Assembly: GCA_001460835.1 (NCBI GenBank)
Contig: CYKH01001779.1
Location: 1 to 53,708 of the forward strand
Source of the DNA: Bodo saltans
Lineage: Eukaryota > Euglenozoa > Kinetoplastea > Eubodonida > Bodonidae
Length of the DNA stretch: 53,708 nucleotides
Direction: 5' to 3'
The position numbers were made by a program, and so were the translations under genes. How positions within the stretch are numbered: the stretch's first letter is position 1; each line of letters begins with the position of its first letter. The notes under the pieces are model-generated. The model was given only the letters and a program-made list of their open reading frames with translations, was not told the origin of the DNA and did not search any database. Positions 4,000 to 31,592 of the stretch are shown here, one piece after another.

Positions 4000-6900
4000 A
4001 TGAGTGCAGCAGCAGCCCCTCACACCAGCAGCAGCAATAGCAGTGCTGCAGGTCCTGCTGGTGCAGCTGGGCCAGACTCTGTCATCCTTCAAATTTGGGT
4101 CATCCCAGACACGCGGGAGCACTACGTTCCATACGCTGTGCTTCTGTCTGACATCACAAAATTAGTCAACCTCGTTCCTGAAGTTCAACAAATCTCCAAG
4201 AATCAATTTCTAATGCGGCGCGACAAGTCTCATCATCGACGCGGTGGTGCGGCAGAAACATTTGACGCATCGCTCAATCAAACGTTCTCAGGGACTCAAA
4301 TGTCAAGAACCTTCGCGGCGTTTGAAAACGACGAAGAGCTTGGTGAACACACATTTAATGACCTTGCCATGACTATGCAAACAAGAAGGGACAAGGCACT
4401 CGAGGAAATCAGCAGATCTGGATTTCAAGAACCAGGATCCCCTGGACTCGCATCTCCTGGAGGCTTTTCCCATCATGATCAGCGCAAGTCGCTAACGAAG
4501 CATTTTCGACTGTACTCTGAAGTCGTTCTCACCGACGAGCTCCAATTGTACATAGCCTACATTGAGTACAGAGCGGACCGTCGACTTATCCAACAGAACT
4601 GCACCGGCTTCACTCCCGATGGAATGGAGTGCTTTCCCATCTTCGACGCGTTGAACACGCCTTGCCTCGATGAAGACGAGCATCGTCAACAAGCCCAACA
4701 ACAAACGGTTCACCACTTTGCGCAGTTTCTTGTTCAGACGATCCATGACATGAACCACATCGCAACGTCTACCATTCGTCCGCATGTCAAGCAAGTGGTT
4801 GATTTCTACACCAAGAAGTCACGCGATGTTGCTGGTGTCACGTTTGCCCTAAGTGAACTTGGGAGTCGCCTTGACACTCTGCACCCGCGCCAACGTGTTA
4901 AGGTCGAGCGGCTATTCCGCCGCACGCACTTCACGGTCAAAATGCTGCAAGAATATTGTGACCACAATCGCCTGATTGTGACAAAGCTCGTGGAACATTT
5001 TGTGCAAGCAACGCATCAATCCACTAGGTCAGTAGATGCTCTCGATCATCTTGTGTTTTTCTCTCATCCACATTCTGGACCACTCGCTATGCTCGACCGG
5101 GCGTTGGTGAAGCAATTCGCAGACCTTTTTTGCGATGGGAATGAAAATGAAGCGCTGGACCGCATTAAGCTTGATCAAGTGAGCACGCGCAAGAAAGCAC
5201 TCACGAAACCACTTCTGTTGCTTGAGGTTGGTTTGCTAGCTGGTATGATGTTCGCTTTTGGGTGCGCATGCATCGTTCTCTACTCATACGCGATTGACGA
5301 GTACAAAGATCTGAAATATTCCGATTCGGACTTGTTTATGTTCAGCGTCTCAGGAATTCTTATTCTCCTCGCAAATCTCTTCGCCATCGATGTCGTGATT
5401 TGGGAATACTACGAGATCAATTTCGTATTCTCGTTGCATTTGAACCCCGTGAAGCATTTTGGAGGGCTTCAGCTGCTTCGTGATCAGCTTCAGTATGCGC
5501 TACTGTGGGTTGTCATACTTTTTTGTTTCGTACACGCCGCGCTCGAAGAATCTATCGTAGGGACAGAATTCCTCGCGCTAAACAACTCCGCTGCTGTATT
5601 GATCGCCGAGGTGCGAAATGCCGCTCTCAATCAGTCCGATGTAAGCTGCTCAGCGAACATGTCGGCCCTCGCCGATCAACTCATTGCCTCAAGCCATCCG
5701 TCGCGATTTATCTTCTATGGCCATACGACGCTTTACTCATGGGTTTGGGCATACTCCGTATTCCCGTGTCTGGCCGTGCTGTACCTCGTTCACTGGTTCT
5801 TAGGGCGGCATAAAGAAAATTGGCTTTCACGAACTCTGTGGCGAATTCTCTGTACTCCCTTCTACCCAGTTGAGTTTCCTGACTTTTTTGTATGTGAGCA
5901 GCTCGTCTCACTCTCCACCACTCTCTTCGAAGTTCAATTCTTGTGGTGCACTTTCAACGCCTCAGATGTGGAAAGTGCGTGTCGAAATGCCCGCGGTGAT
6001 GGCTATTGGGTGCTTCTGATTCTCCCAGCCGTGTGGCGCATTCTGCAATCACTACGCAGGTATCACGACGAACCATTTCACCGCTCGTTCTATCCGCATC
6101 TCCTCAACGCAACCAAGTACCTCAACAACTGCATCGCGTACTCGTTTTACGCTCTGGTCAATGTCTCGAAGTTCGAAGATTGGCATGCAGCGGCAAAGGT
6201 ATCCATCCTTACGCTTTTCTTCGTGACGTTCGCAGGAGACATGATCTTCAAGTGTTGGTATGAATTGTGGATTGAATTTGGAGTTCTGCGCTGGAACGCG
6301 AAGCATTTTCTGATTCGAGACGAAATCCTTCTTCCCCAGTGGACGTACTACGCCGCCGTCGCTGCGAATGTTTTACTTCGTGCGTTGTGGATCATTAAAT
6401 ATTTCACAGAGAAGGTTTGGACCACTGGCTCAAGGTGGACATTTCCTGTGTTCGCTGTCACTGAAATGATTCGCCGCGCGGTGTGGAATGTGTATCGCGT
6501 TGAACACGATCAGGTATCCAACATCGAAAGTTACAAAGTTGTCAAGTTTGCTCCAACGATGCACCATGAAGCACCGCAGAAAGCACTTTGGGATGTCAAC
6601 ACAGACCACTTAAAGAAAAGTATGCCAGAGACACTTCGGACGATTGAATTCTTCGAGTCTTCAAAATCGTTTTTTAGAAGCCTTTCGCGTCAAGAGCGAA
6701 TGAAACTTCTGAAAAAATTGGCCGATGCCGATGCCATTCTACCAAAAGCCGCCGCCGCTGGATCTGCAGCAACGTCTGCCGTGCCAGCGGAAGGGGGGAG
6801 TGACGGCGCATCGATTATCGTTGACGGATCCACCACCAGTGCTGCCGCCGCTTCCTCACTCCGAATGAGCCACGAACCGTTGTCCCCCTCGCCTTCTCGG

Positions 6901-7473
6901 GAGCCGTTTCCAGCATTTCACTTGCAATCATCCGCATCGCATCACCCACATCATGCCGCCTCTTCCATGTATCACGCCGTTCCACCTTCATCGGCGGTCA
7001 GCAACAATCGTGGGGGGATCGATCTCATCCGTGATCCGAGAACTGGCGTGATGAAGACACCATTTATGATGTTTGGGGAGATGTTCGAGGAGGACCGTGC
7101 ACGGGCACTGCTGCTACACATGGACGGCCGCTCATTGGATGTCTACCTCAACGACTTGGTGGAATCAGGCGATTTGGAAAGGGGGTACTTAGATGAGCTC
7201 AATGATGCAATGCTCCGCCCGCAGCGTGGGGCATCGTCCATCTTACAGCGAACAACAGGGCCGCTCACTGATTCTAGCAGTAGTGGTGTTGCCGCCACTG
7301 GTGTTGCTGCTTCTGACCATTCAATTCGTGCACCATCTCGGTCAATCTCTTTGGTGTTACGCCGGGGAACGCTTGCTGGGGAGAGCACAGGCATTGGTCC
7401 CGTGGCCCCAACTTCCGGTGCTACGCATGCCGATGTCGGGCGCTCCGAGTCGGCGATCAGCAAACGCGACTAA
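4000..7473 (+). CDS. SPX-EXS domain membrane protein, XPR1-like (putative phosphate exporter)
   Basis: 1157 residues. The N-terminus resembles a divergent SPX domain: a segment with REHYVPYAVLLSD near residue 40 recalls the SPX start, and helices follow up to about residue 345. Transmembrane helices are visible near 403-428, 446-469, 499-516, 577-601, 734-754 and 782-802. The EXS hallmark is at about 667-727: a Trp-Arg-x-Leu-Gln-x-Leu-Arg-Arg-Tyr stretch, then HLLNATKYLNN. XPR1/PHO1 proteins export inorganic phosphate, gated by inositol pyrophosphates bound to SPX. From about residue 860 there is a roughly 300-residue Ser/Ala/His-rich tail not typical of XPR1. Likely splice acceptors are AG 3790-3791 (after TTTCTTTTT) and AG 3846-3847; ATG 4000 is the first ATG of the long frame. 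Confidence 0.8.
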   Translation: MSAAAAPHTSSSNSSAAGPAGAAGPDSVILQIWVIPDTREHYVPYAVLLSDITKLVNLVPEVQQISKNQFLMRRDKSHHRRGGAAETFDASLNQTFSGTQMSRTFAAFENDEELGEHTFNDLAMTMQTRRDKALEEISRSGFQEPGSPGLASPGGFSHHDQRKSLTKHFRLYSEVVLTDELQLYIAYIEYRADRRLIQQNCTGFTPDGMECFPIFDALNTPCLDEDEHRQQAQQQTVHHFAQFLVQTIHDMNHIATSTIRPHVKQVVDFYTKKSRDVAGVTFALSELGSRLDTLHPRQRVKVERLFRRTHFTVKMLQEYCDHNRLIVTKLVEHFVQATHQSTRSVDALDHLVFFSHPHSGPLAMLDRALVKQFADLFCDGNENEALDRIKLDQVSTRKKALTKPLLLLEVGLLAGMMFAFGCACIVLYSYAIDEYKDLKYSDSDLFMFSVSGILILLANLFAIDVVIWEYYEINFVFSLHLNPVKHFGGLQLLRDQLQYALLWVVILFCFVHAALEESIVGTEFLALNNSAAVLIAEVRNAALNQSDVSCSANMSALADQLIASSHPSRFIFYGHTTLYSWVWAYSVFPCLAVLYLVHWFLGRHKENWLSRTLWRILCTPFYPVEFPDFFVCEQLVSLSTTLFEVQFLWCTFNASDVESACRNARGDGYWVLLILPAVWRILQSLRRYHDEPFHRSFYPHLLNATKYLNNCIAYSFYALVNVSKFEDWHAAAKVSILTLFFVTFAGDMIFKCWYELWIEFGVLRWNAKHFLIRDEILLPQWTYYAAVAANVLLRALWIIKYFTEKVWTTGSRWTFPVFAVTEMIRRAVWNVYRVEHDQVSNIESYKVVKFAPTMHHEAPQKALWDVNTDHLKKSMPETLRTIEFFESSKSFFRSLSRQERMKLLKKLADADAILPKAAAAGSAATSAVPAEGGSDGASIIVDGSTTSAAAASSLRMSHEPLSPSPSREPFPAFHLQSSASHHPHHAASSMYHAVPPSSAVSNNRGGIDLIRDPRTGVMKTPFMMFGEMFEEDRARALLLHMDGRSLDVYLNDLVESGDLERGYLDELNDAMLRPQRGASSILQRTTGPLTDSSSSGVAATGVAASDHSIRAPSRSISLVLRRGTLAGESTGIGPVAPTSGATHADVGRSESAISKRD

Positions 7474-7667: not shown

Positions 7668-8648
7668 ATGATGACAGCCCGCGGAGAAGTGATCGCCGAA
7701 GAAGTAGTGCAGCAGGACATAGACCGCTCTCTTCGACGGATCCAAGAAGCCATTGATGACCCTAGCGGAAGGCTGAAATTGTACCTCAACAATTTGTCGT
7801 TTCCCCAAGTAGACTACAGCATCGAGCGCATCAAAAGCTTGGAGCAGCTTTTCTGTAACCACAATCCACTGCTCTCCACGCTGCCTTTCTCCGTGTGCCA
7901 GCTCTCACACTTGCGCGTGGTGGACTTAAATCACTGCGCCTTGACCCACCTTCCTGAGGACTTATCACGGCTGCGCAGCTTAGAGCGCCTTGATCTTTCG
8001 CACAATCTGCTCACGAGGCTCGTGTGGGATGTTTCGCGGTGGGTAGACTCATTGAAGTACCTCAACGTAGGCAACAATCGGCTTGAATACTTTTCTCCCT
8101 CTTGCATGGAGCTATTCCTTGCACTTCGTAGGAAGCAGCAGGCGAACGAAAAAGTGCAACTGAGCACAGAGCAAGCGCTGACGCTGTTCCCAAATCCCTG
8201 TCTATTCAAGCCCAATGCAACATCCCATATGAGCAGCGTCCAAGAAGAGCAACACTTACTGGGCGCTATGTTACCTGATGGCGTTGAGAACTGCGCGAAC
8301 TGCGGTGCAATGGTCATCGTCGGCCAGCCGCGCGTGTATGTCCACTTTTGGGTGTGGTTGTCAGGAGAAGCACAACAACGGCTGCATGAAGGAGGAGAGA
8401 CGACGTCAGACGGTGGCTCTTCAGTTCCAACGCGCTCGTTGCCAACGTCTGTAGAGGAGCGCCATGTGGCGCCGGCTGATCGTGCGACGGCCAATCCTCA
8501 GGCACACCATCATGGCCTCCAGAGCAGAATTCCAATCTTTTACGCACTGTGCACAAAAGTGGAATGCCACATGCAGCTTCACAAACATGTGAGCATGAGT
8601 GATTTCTATACAGAGGCTGGAGCTCCGCAACGTCCTCGAGGTTTGTAA
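7668..8648 (+). CDS. Leucine-rich-repeat protein with C-terminal Cys pairs
   Basis: 326 residues. Residues about 50-150 hold at least four LRR units of the x-L-x-x-L-x-L-x-x-N/C-x-L type, for example LRVVDLNHCALTHLP, LERLDLSHNLLTRL and LKYLNVGNNRLEYF. LRR blocks normally form a protein-binding solenoid; the partner is unknown. The C-terminal third has a CxxC pair (CANC, near residue 208) and a later C-x4-C next to His residues (CTKVECHMQLHKH), so a small metal-binding module is possible. No signal peptide or membrane helix is seen. The first ATG of a tandem ATGATG was taken as the start. Function is not recognised beyond the LRR fold. Confidence 0.75.
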   Translation: MMTARGEVIAEEVVQQDIDRSLRRIQEAIDDPSGRLKLYLNNLSFPQVDYSIERIKSLEQLFCNHNPLLSTLPFSVCQLSHLRVVDLNHCALTHLPEDLSRLRSLERLDLSHNLLTRLVWDVSRWVDSLKYLNVGNNRLEYFSPSCMELFLALRRKQQANEKVQLSTEQALTLFPNPCLFKPNATSHMSSVQEEQHLLGAMLPDGVENCANCGAMVIVGQPRVYVHFWVWLSGEAQQRLHEGGETTSDGGSSVPTRSLPTSVEERHVAPADRATANPQAHHHGLQSRIPIFYALCTKVECHMQLHKHVSMSDFYTEAGAPQRPRGL

Positions 8649-8853
8649 ACTTTTTTTTTTTGCTGCTGGCCATGTAGGCTTACAGTCACAAGTCTGTACA
8701 GTGTTGCAACACCAAAAAAAATGATGGAAAAGAGTGATTGTTTCGCCATTGACAATATGATACGATGTTTTTTCCCCCGTACCAACTGTGTTTGACGTCG
8801 CTCAAAAGAACAGGGGGATATAAAATTGTAAGTGAACCAACGACGTGGTTGAT

Positions 8854-10551
8854 ATGGTCCAGTTTCGCCCGTACAGTTTTTCGATTCAAACACGCTTCAA
8901 GTGGCGGCACAAAGAAACGGACAGATGGCGGCGGCTCATGGACGGCACTTGCTTTTCTGTAGACTGGCTGACCCAAACAGCGGGGCCAACCATGAGTCAA
9001 TATGGAGGTAACTGGTCTCACATCTTAACGTGCGCGCATGTTGTGTGCCCGTGGCAATACCCCAATTTCTATCCTCCCACCGGTCACACGAGGTACGTCT
9101 CCCACATTACGTTGCCTGACACGCAGATTCAAGTTCGTGCTGCATCATTGCAGGGCGACATCGTGCATCGGCACTTTGTGTCGCACCACAGTGTGTTTGT
9201 ACACACGAACCCGCGCTTGGACCTCTGCGTTGTTCATCCCGAACAGCTCATGAAGCGCTCTGGCGAAATGAAGATGCTCTGGATGCAGAACGAGGGCTTC
9301 GTGATGCGGCCAAGGCTCGAGGTCAACGAAGAGCTCCAGGTCGGAGACTACGTTTGGATCTACGGCTTGACGGCGCATGAAAGTTTGTTCGACGAGGAAA
9401 AGGCGCCAGAGCCGATAATGGTGCCCACTGGCATCCGAGCACGGGTGCACACTAAGACAAGGGAGCACTTCTTCCTCGATACACTGAACGTTGAGGGAGC
9501 CGACAAAGGACAAGTGCACATGGGTATGTGTGGATCCGTAATCATGCGGAATGGGCGATGCGTTGGCATGCTCACGGCGACTGTCCACGAAGATTCAAAT
9601 TGCAAGGAGCTTGCGGGAACGGCGATGTGCACCTACGCTTCAGATATCTTTGAATTTCTCTTGGAAGTTGAGAATCAATTGAAAAATATACCCGAAAATC
9701 CAAACTCGGAGAAAACGAGATTTGAGGCAAATCGTGAGGCAGAAGGCGTGGGGCTCAAAAAAAGCAAAGATTGGAACTTGGACCTCACTCGTATTGCCCG
9801 TCACGTCCCAGCGCCACGATCTCTTTGGAGAATGGAGGAGAAGTGGGTGACAGAGGAGGACAAAATATCTGCGAAAGTATTTGGAAATGGTGGCGTATTC
9901 GATCAAGAAGTTCAGGAAAACGCCCTTGGATACAACATGAACACGTCTAAAGAAGATGGCTCCAAACCCGATGGCGCAATACCGTTCTCCTCAGTGCACG
10001 CGGGAGGACGAGTGCACGCTCAAGGCGAACGACGTGACTCGAGTCCTCGCGATATCTACTCTCCGCCAGATGCTATGAAACAAAAGGAGGAGGGGAGTCA
10101 CATTGACTTTAGAGGCCTCTTCGACAGTCAAGATCTGGACACTGACCATATTTCTCTCGTCAACGGCTTTCGACAAAATATGGAGAACTCTCGGGTTGAA
10201 AAGGAGAGACAGAAGATGAAGGAGAATGTCTTTAAGCATGCGTCTACCACTGGATTCGCTGATCCGATGAACGCAGGGAATACAGGGCACTACGGCGGCA
10301 GCAGCGATCTCGGCAACCAAAACTTTTCCGAAGAAACTGGTAAGAAACCGATCGACGTTTCCAAGACTCCATTTGGTTCAACAAGAGGATTTGAGCAACA
10401 GTGGCAGGCGCCTCCAGCTTCGACTCCGTCGAGCGCAAAAGAAGAACGTGCCCGCGCGAAACGCGAGAAAGAAGCCAAATATCAGGAGGAGCTTCGCAAG
10501 CGACACAATCTGCATCAGCCCGAGAATTTTGGCAACTTTGAGCGTCACTAG
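8854..10551 (+). CDS. Chymotrypsin/trypsin-fold protease-like protein with Cys in the nucleophile position
   Basis: 565 residues. The first 280 or so look like a PA-clan (chymotrypsin-fold) peptidase: a GTCFSV strand, His62 in LTCAHVV, Asp123 in NPRLDLCVV, and the nucleophile loop HMGMCGSVI with Cys226 where serine proteases have Ser in GDSGG. A following strand, GRCVGMLTA, fits the fold. A His/Asp/Cys arrangement with a GxCG loop is the pattern of viral 3C-type cysteine proteases and is unusual in a cellular gene. Residues about 290-565 are polar, probably disordered, and end in a Lys/Arg/Glu-rich helix. The frame is open to a GTG at 8845; ATG 8854 is the first ATG. An acceptor AG lies at 8676-8677 after a T run, or at 8807-8808. 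The substrate is unknown, and it may be an active cysteine protease or a non-catalytic relative. Confidence 0.75.
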   Translation: MVQFRPYSFSIQTRFKWRHKETDRWRRLMDGTCFSVDWLTQTAGPTMSQYGGNWSHILTCAHVVCPWQYPNFYPPTGHTRYVSHITLPDTQIQVRAASLQGDIVHRHFVSHHSVFVHTNPRLDLCVVHPEQLMKRSGEMKMLWMQNEGFVMRPRLEVNEELQVGDYVWIYGLTAHESLFDEEKAPEPIMVPTGIRARVHTKTREHFFLDTLNVEGADKGQVHMGMCGSVIMRNGRCVGMLTATVHEDSNCKELAGTAMCTYASDIFEFLLEVENQLKNIPENPNSEKTRFEANREAEGVGLKKSKDWNLDLTRIARHVPAPRSLWRMEEKWVTEEDKISAKVFGNGGVFDQEVQENALGYNMNTSKEDGSKPDGAIPFSSVHAGGRVHAQGERRDSSPRDIYSPPDAMKQKEEGSHIDFRGLFDSQDLDTDHISLVNGFRQNMENSRVEKERQKMKENVFKHASTTGFADPMNAGNTGHYGGSSDLGNQNFSEETGKKPIDVSKTPFGSTRGFEQQWQAPPASTPSSAKEERARAKREKEAKYQEELRKRHNLHQPENFGNFERH

Positions 10552-10863
10552 GCGCAACATCGTGCCGTGTTCATTCTTTTTATGATAATTCAGAAGTGAT
10601 TTGTTTTGTATCTGACATAACTCGTTATCATTTGCCACCACTAGTCTGGTTGGTTTTCTCTTTCTCTCACTCATTCAAACAGGATTTGCATCCAGCGTTA
10701 TTCAGTAACGAAAACAGATAGAAGCACTTTTCCCCCAAAGAAGGACTTCGATCTGTTCTCGTTGTGATTGACTTTCGTGTTTCGGTGAAAAAAAACACTG
10801 GATTCTTTAGGATCTGGATCTCGAAATATCATCACTTTCAAACGAAAAAAGGACGAGAAGAAA
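10552..10863 (+). other. Intergenic spacer (312 bp)
   Basis: No gene seen. It contains the strong pyrimidine tract and AG described at 10648-10682, then about 180 bases of A/T-rich leader before ATG 10864. Confidence 0.6.
10648..10682 (+). promoter_or_regulatory. Trans-splice acceptor (pyrimidine tract + AG)
   Basis: A long T/C tract (TTTTCTCTTTCTCTC) is followed by CAAACAG, with AG at 10681-10682. It is the best acceptor candidate for the TPR-CHAT gene starting at 10864. Confidence 0.5.
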
Positions 10864-13800
10864 ATGATGAACATTGATGCGAAGCCGTGGTACCCAACAG
10901 CTTGCGTTGACGGGGCTATGGCTGATGTTGATATGTTCGCCGCTTTGCAGGCTAACGAGAGCAGCGAAATGGTGCTTGGGACGACCAGTTCCGCAGCATC
11001 GTACACTCCTACCCCTGACCCGTCCCCGCACCTCCACTCTGGGGTGCGACGCAATGACCCCTATCGCAGCAACTCTTTCACTCACGGTGGTGGTGGTGGC
11101 GACGGGCCATACACCAGTGGTCAAGTTTCGTACACGGTTGAGGGCACAGCGAATGCATCCTCAAACCACCACATCATGATAGGAGGGGGAGGAGGAGGAG
11201 CGAAGCCTTACACCAGCGGCAGCAACCCTTCTTCTGGCAGCGGCGGTCAACATGCCCATATCATGGATTACTCGGAGCTCATGTACAGCGCGATGCAGCA
11301 ACAAGGGTTGTTAGATGGACCGCCGAGTTACACCGACTTTGTTGCCCAGCCGTATCGCTCCGCTCAGTTCCGCTCGTCGCACGATCTTGACGGTGAACAC
11401 CATGGCGTGTCCTCAGGTTCAAACAGCGGGTCCAACGGCAGCAACTCTCCTCGACAGCCTGCTGCCTCAGCCGCAGCACAACAACCACCGTCGGCAGAGA
11501 AGAAGCCAAAAGCTCCTCCAGTACCAGTTGCGATTCCCCTGCCTCGTTCCCGCCGTACAGGGAGCGACGCGGCACCAGGTGCCGTTGCACCTGCAGCGGT
11601 TCCTGTCCAATTAAAGTCAACGTCGACGACTCCAACGGAATCCCAAAACGCATCCCCCACGAAGCCCAGCGTCGCTGACTTTCCTCTACCAGCTCCCCGA
11701 TCGCAACGCGCACAAGTAAAACTGGACTCTCCAACATCGTGCGATGCGTTTTACGACGACGCTGAAGAAAACATTGTTGCCAGGCTGCAGGACATGCTTG
11801 CTCGAAATCGCAACAACACTAACAGCACGACAGGAGCGTTCACGATTCACTCCGCAAGTAGTCCTCCAACACCACCACCCGTCGAAAAAGAGAAAGATCG
11901 TTCAGAACACAACAAGGGCAAGTTGGCGACCAAGGAAGTAGAGGACGACGCACTCCAAGCAGGCAGCCCCACATCTGAGACGGCAGAAGAATTTCCGAAG
12001 AAAGACTTTGCTGCTTCTTTAGCCGCGCTCAAGAAGAAAAAGGCTCCAGCAGCGAAGAAGAAAGATGAGTGGAAGACAGTGGAGAAGCATGGCAACAATC
12101 ACGTCTCAACCCACAGCACAACGAACCGTCACTCTTCGGCAACCGCACCTACGTTGGTCGCTGCGTCAACAAACAAATTCGAAATCGTCACTCAATCCCA
12201 ACAAGCGAAGAGTCTCAATGGTAAGAAAGCTGCAACGAAACGTAACGAGGATTCTGATGACAGCGACCATGACACCACAACAACCATCGTGTTCGCGTCC
12301 GCCAAGCCTCAGAAGCATCACAGCCACGTCAACAAGCATCACGCTCATCATAACGCTGATGAAGAGGATGCATGGCTCGAAGAAATTTCTCGCGCTGGCG
12401 CAGCTGCCCAAGAACAACATCAACGCCAAGCACTTGAGCACGCATGCTACAAAGATACTTTGTGTTTTTTGGGCCAACATCGTGTTCGCGTCCGCCAAGC
12501 CTCAGAAGCATCACAGCCACGTCAACAAGCATCACGCTCATCATAACGCTGATGAAGAGGCGTGGCTCGAAGAAATTTCTCGCGCTGGCGCAGCTGCTCA
12601 AGAACAGCATCAACGCCAAGCACTTGAGCACGCATGCTACAAAGATACTTTGTGTTTTTTGGGCCAACAGATTTCACTGAAGTCGTTGCCAAATGTCGGT
12701 GCACTTCTTCCGATCAAGCCCACACAGGCGCAAATTAGCCTGGCCTCGACGTTTCAACGCATCATTGACGAACCACACGGTGATCACAATGTCAATGCGA
12801 AGCACAGTGCACTGCGTCGACTTCTTGACAAGGTACTCAGCCATTCGCAGAACACCGCTCCGCTTGTGATCTGCATTCATGTTGAGCTCAGTGAATCCGC
12901 TATCGACCTCGACTCTGGCCTTCAACACGTTCGTCAAGCACTTCACTTAGCCCGCCTGCAGCAGTCGCTTCCACTCGAATTACTGGCATTGATTGCATAT
13001 TTCAAGTTTACCCAGAAATTGTCCGAGTCGGTAGAATCGAGCAGCGATCTTCAGCGCGCCCTCGATATCGCACTTGAACTCGGGGAAATGCAAGCCCTTG
13101 GCTGGACTGCCAGTATGATCGCCATCTCGCTCGAAGTGGTAGGTGCGTTCCCTGAAAGCGTCTCCTGGCAGGTCCTCGCCTGGCGCATCGGTCACTTCAC
13201 CGACGACAATCGGTTGGAGGCCGAGTCTGTTGCCCACGTGGCCCTTTCATTAGCTGCCGCTGGAGCATTCGATGAGGCTGAGCGGTTGTTGGATGTGGTG
13301 GTGGGAATCTGCAAGTCCAATGATCGAAGCGTCACGCAACGGACGACGCTGAACATGTCACAGATTGCGACTCAGATCGGCGATATGGACCGCGCCATTA
13401 CCCTTCTTACCGAAGAGCGCGACGCACACCGTGCTGCCCGGGAGCAAGTTCCCCAGCCGCTGATGCACAACATCGCACAAACCCTTCGCGGTATGGGTCG
13501 TGTGGAAGAAGCACTGCAAGCGCATCAAGGTGATTCCTCGTCGGATGTCACCATGTCAACCGTTCCTCGAGACTTGGACTCCATGATGTGCATCGCAACA
13601 TGCCTGAAACTGCTCGGTCACACTGCGAAAGCACGCGATGTGCATCGCAACATGCCTGAAACTGCTCGGTCACACTGCGAAAGCACGCGACACCCTCGTG
13701 AAGCTCCTACGCGCCGCGCGAGAGACGCAAGACAACGGAATTGCCGCCAAAGCTCTCGCTGAAGTTGGCGACCTCGATGCCAAGGATGGCAACTACGAAG

Positions 13801-15693
13801 AGGCCGTCATTCGACTTGTGGAGGGTCTTCGATTGATTGAGCAAGCAGCTCCCACTGAGTGCAAGCAATTCTACTTGAAGATTCACTTGTGCGAAGCTGA
13901 ATGGAAAATCTGTGAAGTCCTTGAATGTATTCACGCTGATCGAAATGAAATCGTCGATGCCGTGCGCTTCAGTGATGCCATGCGTATTCCCAACACCGCC
14001 AACGTCGTTGGGCTTCTGCAAAAGAAGCAACAACGTGCGATGCAACAAATTGCAGTCCATTCAGCCGCTGCCACGACAACGACGGCTTCTGGGTCAGAGT
14101 CGAATTGCGTCGCCACTACGACCGCGTCGTCAAGCAAGAAGGTCGCGCTGGCAACCCCCGTGAACGTTCCTGGTCCTCGTGCTCTCGCGCAATTCCAAGC
14201 ATCACTACAGTTCTTGAAGAATCGTTTCTTTGATCCCGCCCACCTCACCCGCATGCTTGCAGACAAGGCCGTCGCTGGTGTGGACACTATGATCGTTTAC
14301 TCCCTTCACTGGAACGATTCCTTCGACTACAATATTTTTGCTCTTCGTCATGACGATGCCACCAACGAGCTCGTCACGAAGCGTGTGTCTCTTTCCTTCG
14401 CTCGTCACGAAGCGTGTGTCTCTTTCCTTCACACCCCAGGCGATTCGTGTGATTGCAGGGACTCATAGTGCCTTCTACTCTGTATTTCATCGCGAATCTA
14501 ACTCTGCGGTTACACGCGAAAATGGTAATGCAGCGAGCACAACCACCGACAAAATTGACAGCGACACACCATTGTTTCCCTCTCAATACTTTCACGTTCA
14601 GTGCAAGTACGCGAGAGAGCACCCTGAAGATGCAAAGCGTATTGAGCATGACCTCGAGTATTGCCTCTCGATTTTGTACGATGCACTCGTGAAGCCCATT
14701 GAGGAGTTCCTTCAGTTGGACGCGACCAATGTACCACGACTTTTGTTCGTTGGCGATGGTGCTATCAGCATGGTTCCCTTCCCTGCGCTTCCTATGGGCA
14801 ACAGCGACGAACAAGGTTCATCCCAGCGTCTTCTTGATGTCTGCATGAGCACCAAGCTCCCTTCAGTAGAGCACGCATTGACATTGTACACCAAACGTTT
14901 GGCCTCTGCTGCTGCTGCTGCCGCCGCTCAACCCGCCGCCGCCATCGTTGCTTCTTCGACGCAAGCGGAGGAGCCACCAACAGTCATTAGTGGGTTTACG
15001 GAAGCCGACAGTGGTATCACGCTGCTGCGCGCTGCTATCAAATCCATGAAACTAATCTCTATCGTTGACAACGAGAAGGCAGTGGCGGAGCACGCGGCAA
15101 AGCCGTCGCTCCCAACTCAACGCGACATCGAAGCATGCGAAGTGGACGACGTTCCGCAGCTTTGTCGACGATTGATGGAAGCAACCCTCAACACACACCC
15201 GCGTGATAAAACGTTAAGCAATGAGCTCTTCCGCGCCTTGTTTGTGGATGCAAACCGCTCAGCTCCGCTGTTCCTTGACATGCCTGTCGTCACAGATGTG
15301 AAGGAAGACTTCAGCGGAGTCATGACCACCGCTATTGGCACCACGTTAGTGTCGTCATCAGAGATTTCAGTCACTTGGGATTTATCAGCGTTCCCCCTTG
15401 TTATTGCAACGCGTTTCGGTGCCCACGGCACTCGCAGCATTCACGAAACGGGCATTCCGGTGAACAGAGCTCTCCTCCTCGCGGGTGCGCAGCGTCTGCT
15501 GATTCCCATCGGTAGCAACGCTATGGTGAAGTGCAGCGCGGAGAGCATGTCTGTTCCCAGTGCAGCTGCAGAGGCTGTGAAGGCCGGGAAATCAGTCTTC
15601 CTCGCCATTCACGATTCGATGAAGGCCTTGCGAAATACAGGTGCCCCAACGAGTGTGTGGTCGGCCTTCACGTTCTTCGGTCTCCCCATCTAA
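10864..15693 (+). CDS. TPR-CHAT domain protein; reading frame broken three times by tandem duplications
   Basis: One gene of about 1518 codons, read here as four overlapping open frames: 10864-12546, then frames running to 13762, to 14468 and to 15693. Each frame change coincides with a tandem duplication (12285-12667, 13585-13688, 14369-14430). Counting each duplicated unit once restores one continuous frame. The first ~470 residues are low-complexity (Ser, Pro, His, Asn, Ala). The middle (nt ~12670-14070) is helical with TPR-like units such as GAFDEAERLLDVVV, GRVEEALQAH and GNYEEAVIRLVEGL. The last part (nt ~14580-15693) matches a CHAT domain: LYDALVKPIEEFL, LLFVGDGAISMVPFPAL, RALLLAGAQRLLIPIG and SVWSAFTFFGLPI. 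CHAT proteins belong to the caspase/separase clan, but the His-Gly and Cys positions look lost here. The start is the first ATG after the AG at 10681-10682. The breaks could be assembly errors or real inactivation. Confidence 0.75.
12285..12667 (+). repeat. Tandem duplication, 193 bp + 190 bp
   Basis: Copy 1 is 12285-12477 and copy 2 is 12478-12667, both running from CATCGTGTTCGCG to TTTTTTGGGCCAA. They differ by one whole-codon deletion in copy 2 (an Asp codon in GAGGATGCATGG versus GAGGCGTGG) and three synonymous changes (GCA/GCG, GCC/GCT, CAA/CAG). The extra unit is one more than a multiple of three, so it shifts the frame. Confidence 0.95.
13585..13688 (+). repeat. Exact tandem duplication, 52 bp x 2
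   Basis: Copy 1 is 13585-13636 and copy 2 is 13637-13688, both beginning GATGTGCATCGC and ending GCGAAAGCACGC, with no difference. The insertion shifts the TPR-region reading frame by one base. Confidence 0.95.
14369..14430 (+). repeat. Exact tandem duplication, 31 bp x 2
   Basis: Copy 1 is 14369-14399 and copy 2 is 14400-14430, both beginning GCTCGTCACGAAGC and ending CTCTTTCCTTC, with no difference. The insertion shifts the frame by one base just before the CHAT domain. Confidence 0.95.
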
Positions 15694-29935: not shown

Positions 29936-30235
29936 NNNNNNNNNNNNNNNNNNNNNNNNNNNNNNNNNNNNNNNNNNNNNNNNNNNNNNNNNNNNNNNNN
30001 NNNNNNNNNNNNNNNNNNNNNNNNNNNNNNNNNNNNNNNNNNNNNNNNNNNNNNNNNNNNNNNNNNNNNNNNNNNNNNNNNNNNNNNNNNNNNNNNNNNN
30101 NNNNNNNNNNNNNNNNNNNNNNNNNNNNNNNNNNNNNNNNNNNNNNNNNNNNNNNNNNNNNNNNNNNNNNNNNNNNNNNNNNNNNNNNNNNNNNNNNNNN
30201 NNNNNNNNNNNNNNNNNNNNNNNNNNNNNNNNNNN
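29936..30235. other. Assembly gap (300 N)
   Basis: Exactly 300 undetermined bases. It lies inside the second R2 copy and is too short for the missing ~1,128 bases if that copy is full length, so the size should be treated as nominal. Confidence 0.99.
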
Positions 30236-30797: not shown

Positions 30798-31592
30798 ATG
30801 AAGCTGAACATTGCGTACCCACGCAACGGCACCGTGAAGCAGGCTGACATCCCTGATGAGCAGCTCCGCCGCGTGCACCTTGGCGATTACCGCCTCGGCA
30901 ACGAGGTTGAGGGCGTCATCTTCGGTGATGAGTTCAAGGGTTACACCTTCCGCCTCACCGGTGGATCCGACAAGGATGGTTTCCCCATGATCCAGGGTGT
31001 CATGGCCCCCTCCCGTGTGTCCCTGCTGATCAAGCGTGGCGCCAAGGGCTTCAACGCCTTCCGTGGTGGCGAGGGCGAGCGCCGCCGCAAGGCCCTCCGC
31101 GGTTGCATCCTCGGAAACGACCTTGCCGTCATCAACGTGATCATCACCAAGACCGGTGAGCAGCCCATCGAGGGCGTCACGGACGTGTCCCTCCCCCGCC
31201 GCCTTGGCCCCAAGCGCGCCAACAACATCCGCAAGCTCTTCAACCTGAGCCGCGAGGACGACGTGAGCAAGTTCGTTGTCCGCCGCAAGGTGACGAAGGC
31301 CGGCAAGAAGGACCGCTTCAAGGCCCCCAAGATCCAGCGCCTGATCACCTCCACCATCCGCGCCCGCCGCGCCAAGAAGGTGAAGGTTGCCATCGAGAAG
31401 GTCCGCGCGTCCGCTGTCGAGCGCCGCGAGTACCTGTCCCTGCTGGCCACCCGCCGCCAGGCCGCCCGCCAGCGCAAGAACTCTCTGCTCCACCGCCAGC
31501 TTGTCGGTGCCCACAAGGCTGACCTCAAGGCCTTCACTGCCGCCAAGGCTGCCCCCAAGGCCGCCGTCGCTGCCAAGACCGCCAAGAAGTAA
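30798..31592 (+). CDS. RPS6: 40S ribosomal protein eS6
   Basis: 264 residues, starting MKLNIAYPRNGTVKQ as eS6 proteins do, with the conserved LGDYRLGNEVEG, GGSDKDGFPMIQG, RRRKALRGCI and PRRLGPKRANNIRKLF blocks. It is a structural component of the small ribosomal subunit. The C-terminus is an Ala/Lys-rich tail and lacks the RRLSS-type serine cluster that S6 kinases phosphorylate in animals. Third codon positions are almost all G or C, matching high expression. The frame is open upstream to 30729, but acceptor AGs at 30786-30787 and 30794-30795 make ATG 30798 the clear start. Confidence 0.97.
   Translation: MKLNIAYPRNGTVKQADIPDEQLRRVHLGDYRLGNEVEGVIFGDEFKGYTFRLTGGSDKDGFPMIQGVMAPSRVSLLIKRGAKGFNAFRGGEGERRRKALRGCILGNDLAVINVIITKTGEQPIEGVTDVSLPRRLGPKRANNIRKLFNLSREDDVSKFVVRRKVTKAGKKDRFKAPKIQRLITSTIRARRAKKVKVAIEKVRASAVERREYLSLLATRRQAARQRKNSLLHRQLVGAHKADLKAFTAAKAAPKAAVAAKTAKK

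Follow-up and report, generated by a model that had tools for sequence, protein, structure and literature searches.

A stretch of 53,708 nucleotides (nt) from the kinetoplastid Bodo saltans (contig CYKH01001779.1), referred to here as the window, contains a gene for a protein of 565 amino acids (aa) that consists of a domain resembling PA-clan peptidases and a long tail (Table 1). Three residues that could form a catalytic triad, His62, Asp123 and Cys226, are present in the canonical order, and the domain carries a PA-clan signal at the level of sequence profiles. The predicted nucleophile is thus Cys, and not the Ser that is found in HtrA-like peptidases.

Table 1. Features of the 565-aa gene and of its surroundings in the window.
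Feature	Position	Strand	Remarks
Gene for 565-aa protein, PA-clan-like domain plus long tail	8854..10551	+	ATG at 8854; stop codon ends at 10551
Chymotrypsin-fold (HtrA/Trypsin_2-like) domain, predicted, residues 1–279	8854..9690	+	structural matches cover residues 27–273
His62 codon CAT (TCAHV)	9037..9039	+	predicted general base
Asp123 codon GAC (RLDLCVV)	9220..9222	+	aligns to the DLAVL-like HtrA strand
Cys226 codon TGT (GMCGS)	9529..9531	+	predicted nucleophile at the Ser position
Tail of 286 aa, residues 280–565	9691..10548	+	Lys/Arg/Glu-rich end; Cys-free
Pyrimidine tract with AG dinucleotides after it, in front of the start codon	8768..8813	+	found by eye
Leucine-rich repeat (LRR) protein, flanking the gene	7668–8648	same as gene	
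Open reading frame (ORF) flanking the gene on the other side	from 10864	same as gene	
Ribosomal protein eS6	30798–31592		best solved chains 4v8m, 5opt, 6az1, 5osg (E 2.7e-109 or better), then 6zj3 (1e-71)

The three residues had been assigned to triad positions in a first-pass annotation made from the sequence alone, and their codons and coordinates proved to be exact. In a MAFFT alignment with HtrA domains Cys226 occupies the Ser column and is followed by a gap, the Cys226 loop being one residue shorter than the HtrA nucleophile hairpin; both glycines of the loop, G224 and G227, are retained. The hairpin of a SpoIVB protein from comparison locus L093, GMSGSPIIQDGRLIG, is equally short and aligns without gaps on GMCGSVIMRNGRCVG of the query, with Cys over Ser. 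Owing to this ungapped match to a hairpin of equal length, Cys226 is taken as the nucleophile position, in agreement with the MAFFT alignment and with the earlier assignment. Judging from the alignment, Cys226 would be located near His62 in space.

A search against PA-clan profiles, suggested in the same annotation, was performed with the 24,736 models of Pfam. Trypsin_2 (PF13365) was the only family retrieved for residues 1–279 at E≤10 (E 0.028); the match spans residues 52–239, reaches the last position of the model and contains the His-Asp-nucleophile order as well as the strand motifs. HMMER filters discard most matches above E ~0.1, which limits Pfam negatives at E≤10. The SpoIVB profile (S55, PF05580) matched 28 residues with 13.7 bits (cut-off 25), and two non-overlapping pieces of the domain each matched PA-clan families, in order and at sub-threshold scores. 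Shuffled sequences provided a further measure of the signal. On a profile of 35 HtrA domains one of 2000 shuffles surpassed the query, which reached 6.1 bits (E 0.76), whereas the hhalign score (E 0.00095), which concerns residues 110–271 and hence does not include His62, was reached by none of 200. Residues 203–279 compared with the end of one SpoIVB protein, which had been picked after the Pfam match to SpoIVB, scored above all 5000 shuffles. At the profile level the resemblance to the PA clan noted in the first-pass annotation is therefore more than chance, with no single score being strong. Searches of NCBIfam with the full-length protein, residues 1–279 and the tail retrieved no families, nor did those of PHROGs and PADLOC with residues 1–279. 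Sequence searches of the PDB yielded only unrelated weak matches (best E 0.47, 0.44 and 0.17), and a whole-family SpoIVB search of the B. saltans genome gave no match at E≤10.

The tail agrees with its first-pass description as long and disordered. Based on composition, disorder-promoting residues make up 66% of residues 280–565, compared with 45% of residues 1–279. The only Pfam match of the tail at E≤10 was to CR6_interact (E 0.17, not significant), and no PDZ domain was found among its matches at that threshold. The proposed lack of a secretory signal is likewise consistent with composition: the most hydrophobic stretch of 19 residues that begins before residue 25 has a mean hydropathy of −0.53, and no segment resembling a signal peptide is apparent. 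The missing hydrophobic N-terminal segment, together with a Cys-free tail rich in disorder-promoting residues, points to a peptidase of the cell interior.

Structure prediction, which had also been proposed, gave a divided result. A model guided by 32 HtrA-like domains produced fold matches, the top one in the PDB having an E value of 1.1e-6, whereas the unguided model failed. The chymotrypsin fold claimed in the first-pass annotation is supported by the sequence profiles and suggested by the guided model.

On balance, we lean towards regarding the protein as an intracellular, non-secreted chymotrypsin-fold Cys peptidase that arose on the cellular (HtrA/Trypsin_2) side of the PA clan when its catalytic Ser changed to Cys. 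A number of observations weigh against this reading. The unguided model attained a predicted local distance difference test (pLDDT) score of 35. The match of the guided model to HtrA is partly imposed, given the domains with which it was built; 89 of its 283 residues are below pLDDT 50, and query-normalised Foldseek TM-scores among the best 50 PDB matches are 0.40–0.50. Trypsin_2 scores 15.6 bits against a gathering cut-off of 27.6, and all Pfam scores are sub-threshold. A Pfam scan of the full-length protein retrieved no family at E≤0.1, and a Trypsin_2 search of the B. saltans genome at E≤10 recovered two other loci and missed the present gene. The hhalign probability is just 22%, and its alignment lies one residue off, with a gap at Ser and Cys226 on the Gly that follows. 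No homologues were found in the B. saltans genome or in the prokaryotic, phage, plasmid and viral collections. The sub-threshold scores, the two scans in which the match is missing, the single higher-scoring shuffle on the HtrA profile and the failed unguided model would all be expected if the resemblance were fortuitous and the protein did not belong to the PA clan. Such an explanation is nevertheless highly improbable, considering that non-overlapping pieces match PA-clan families in order and that the query score was reached by no shuffle with either hhalign or the SpoIVB end.

A further adverse point comes from the other PA-clan proteins of B. saltans. Two proteins of its genome score above the Trypsin_2 cut-off. 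One is HtrA-like and retains Ser (GNSGGP; locus L002, 1081–3284); its protease ORF stops at 2361 and a second ORF, PDZ-like by eye, begins at 2394 in another frame, possibly reflecting a frame break. In the other (L003, 1435–2949) a Trypsin_2 domain is joined to ARM repeats, and the alignment to the profile hidden Markov model (HMM) shows Ala in place of the Ser and, two residues further on, a Cys. The latter is a likely PA-clan pseudoprotease, judging from its sequence; it seems to have lost the nucleophile, and dead members of the clan may therefore occur in this genome. A recent duplication from either locus was considered as the source of the query and rejected, since BLASTP similarity to the query was not significant. 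According to a T. brucei survey, S1 peptidases are absent from all trypanosomatids (PMC4376731).

The Ala in L003 makes a non-catalytic role of the 565-aa protein a real rival: the fold would persist for binding or as a scaffold, together with the tail, and Cys226 would be a relic or a chance residue. The strong divergence of the domain and its long insertions fit such a history, and putatively inactive forms are known among serine proteases, with 42 of 966 members of five families so described in 91 prokaryotic genomes (PMC2605481). On the other hand, the triad is complete, in order and made up of chemically competent residues, G224 and G227 are kept, and a decaying site would presumably have lost His or Asp as well in most cases. 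We consider a pseudoprotease unlikely, though well within the range of serious candidates.

The nucleophile had originally been termed viral-3C-like, with an independent Ser-to-Cys switch and acquisition from an RNA virus offered as alternative origins. Among the pieces of the protein scanned against Pfam, no viral Cys-protease family and no C3 family appeared at E≤10. Neither IMG/VR, phage records nor prokaryote genomes yielded a relative, the IMG/VR and prokaryote searches reaching close relatives only. These collections include few RNA viruses. When the guided model was compared with a library of viral folds, a comparison biased by its HtrA guidance, 93 models matched at E≤0.001, and the best of them, an unnamed 210-residue model (E 1.1e-8), was better than any PDB match. 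Six of the top 20 matches name an enzyme, in each case a serine, trypsin-like or HtrA protease, and belong to one archaeal virus, two phages, one giant virus and two RNA viruses; of the remainder, eight are unnamed and six name no enzyme. RNA-virus polyproteins or proteins occur among the best 50 (e.g. ranks 8, 26, 27, 35, 40 and 47); the entry at rank 35 is a Picornavirales polyprotein, and that at rank 40 is one from a potyvirus.

Capture of a 3C-type Cys protease from a positive-strand RNA virus would account for these fold matches, including the one that exceeds all PDB matches, and is in keeping with a 2019 description of PA-clan Cys proteases as coming from such viruses (PMC6524800). Even so, we regard it as very unlikely: Pfam provided no viral Cys-protease family at E≤10 for the pieces scanned, IMG/VR and phage records no close relative, and the named enzymes among the leading viral folds are those of serine-type proteases, with the bias already stated. 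Cys226 itself is as in the viral families, but what can be recognised of the surrounding sequence is not viral, the local matches being to the cellular serine families Trypsin_2 and S55. Since no viral Cys-protease family of Pfam was retrieved and the nucleophile hairpin is nearest to that of SpoIVB, the term 'viral-3C-like' describes a residue and not an ancestry, and the specific link to viral 3C proteases is not upheld. Of the two proposed origins, the sequence matches favour an independent Ser-to-Cys switch and disfavour viral acquisition.

If the protein is a cellular peptidase that has exchanged Ser for Cys, it would descend from the HtrA/Trypsin_2 side of the PA clan. Asp123 would orient His62, which would activate the thiol of Cys226 for attack on the peptide bond of a substrate, and, as in chymotrypsin, the oxyanion hole would be made up of main-chain amides, here those of Gly224 and Cys226. 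Targeting or self-regulation might be the task of the tail; a CSPP1-like or flagellar role, suggested by a resemblance at the tail end, was not adopted. That the protein is catalytic, what it acts on, where it is located and that the exchange ran from Ser to Cys are all features that we infer. The most specific version of the proposal, a catalytically active PA-clan Cys peptidase encoded by a kinetoplastid cell and produced by a natural Ser-to-Cys switch within the HtrA/Trypsin_2 branch, is put forward tentatively, as having somewhat less than an even chance of being correct. Were it true, it would represent a natural switch of this kind outside viruses, paralleling in a cell the event that may have given rise to the 3C-type proteases of viruses, and an unlisted kind of intracellular peptidase in kinetoplastids. 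Among the literature matches listed, the portions of the sources available hold nothing on a cell-encoded PA-clan Cys peptidase or on this protein, which is not proof of absence.

Ser was the nucleophile in all 82 domains obtained from the 84 comparison loci scanned (81 GNSGG and one GSSGG, as opposed to GMCGS in the query), five loci of the B. saltans genome and L008, L010 and L012 having been left out; these loci were chosen partly by the motif adjoining the nucleophile, so that they are not a fair sample of the rarity of Cys. A separate idea concerned ecotin-like inhibitors (ISPs), of which Leishmania has three, ISP1 having an unexplained intracellular role there (PMC3440592). That role would make an intracellular PA-clan protein a candidate ISP target; the idea finds no support here, as no ecotin was found in the B. 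saltans genome at E≤1 by a search that detected the E. coli control.

The neighbours of the gene in the window are ordinary cellular genes. The pyrimidine tract and AG dinucleotides upstream of its ATG are compatible with a kinetoplastid trans-splice acceptor. Four of the solved chains nearest to eS6 (4v8m, 5opt, 6az1 and 5osg) we take to be trypanosomatid and 6zj3 to be from Euglena; on this assumption, the proximity of eS6 to them identifies the host as a kinetoplastid. An EXS-domain protein at 4000–7473 is probably a phosphate exporter, its solved relatives being SLC53A1, a SYG1 homologue and PHO1 homologue 1. A run of 300 N at 29936–30235 presumably marks a scaffold gap. Positions 12285–14430 contain what seems to be a single TPR and CHAT-domain gene whose parts lie in several frames owing to three short direct duplications; their spacings are all 1 modulo 3. 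The first has a spacing of 193 (83 nt, 100% identity) and adjoins a 120-nt pair (95%, spacing 190); the second and third are exact tandems of 52 nt (13585–13688) and 31 nt (14369–14430), and a scan of units of 13–399 nt detected no other near-exact adjacent tandem duplication in the window. The frame breaks reflect either an assembly artefact or a decayed gene.

Broken frames in other genes of the assembly bear on whether Cys226 is genuine, as a single base separates its TGT codon from AGT and from TCT, both of which encode Ser, and an error could have disguised an ordinary cellular serine peptidase. However, the ORF of the 565-aa protein is unbroken and positions 8000–10800 are free of direct repeats of at least 25 nt; moreover, the frame breaks of the TPR-CHAT gene accompany duplications, not substitutions, and it is a priori improbable that a substitution should strike precisely the codon of the nucleophile. 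A sequencing or assembly error is accordingly highly improbable. The only match of the whole protein in the B. saltans genome (29.3 Mb, 934 contigs) is its own gene. In-frame codon-usage scores (0.007 for the domain, 0.002 for the tail) exceed those of the other two same-strand frames but not those of all reverse frames; these scores are uninformative, as a UBX neighbour, one of two checked, behaves alike.

Known systems share different aspects of the protein. Picornavirus 3C proteases (MEROPS C3 and others) have a Cys nucleophile, a chymotrypsin fold and the His-Asp/Glu-Cys order (PMC6524800), as predicted for the query. They differ in giving no profile match to it in Pfam at E≤10, and the query is encoded among ordinary cellular genes; it is not assigned to C3. 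In picornain 3C, a His in the S1 pocket accommodates Gln or Glu at P1. L003, a Trypsin_2 protein of the same genome, has LDYC where the query has LDLC at the Asp, but differs in its Ala at the Ser position, its ARM repeats and the BLASTP result. The cellular serine peptidase SpoIVB (MEROPS S55), whose loop reads GM-x-GS, shares the GM-[S/C]-GS nucleophile hairpin, of equal length and ungapped, although it uses Ser and the likeness is limited to about 28 residues. FAM111A and FAM111B, two human Trypsin_2 proteases, are found inside the cell, and the query has no evident secretory segment; its triad spacing of 61/103 compares with 54/102 in FAM111A (PMC9798293). Both human proteins employ Ser and have N-terminal UBL domains and a C-terminal protease, whereas the query has its protease at the N terminus, ahead of the tail. 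With HtrA/Deg peptidases (MEROPS S1C; PF13365) the protein has in common the His-Asp-nucleophile order, a DLAVL-like Asp strand, a G-D-x-V strand and a predicted double-barrel fold, and it departs from them in its Cys, the absence of a detected PDZ domain, a hairpin one residue shorter, long insertions and a sub-threshold profile score. For want of Ser, a PDZ domain and a score above the profile cut-off it is not classed with them, yet it may work like an HtrA/Trypsin_2 peptidase.
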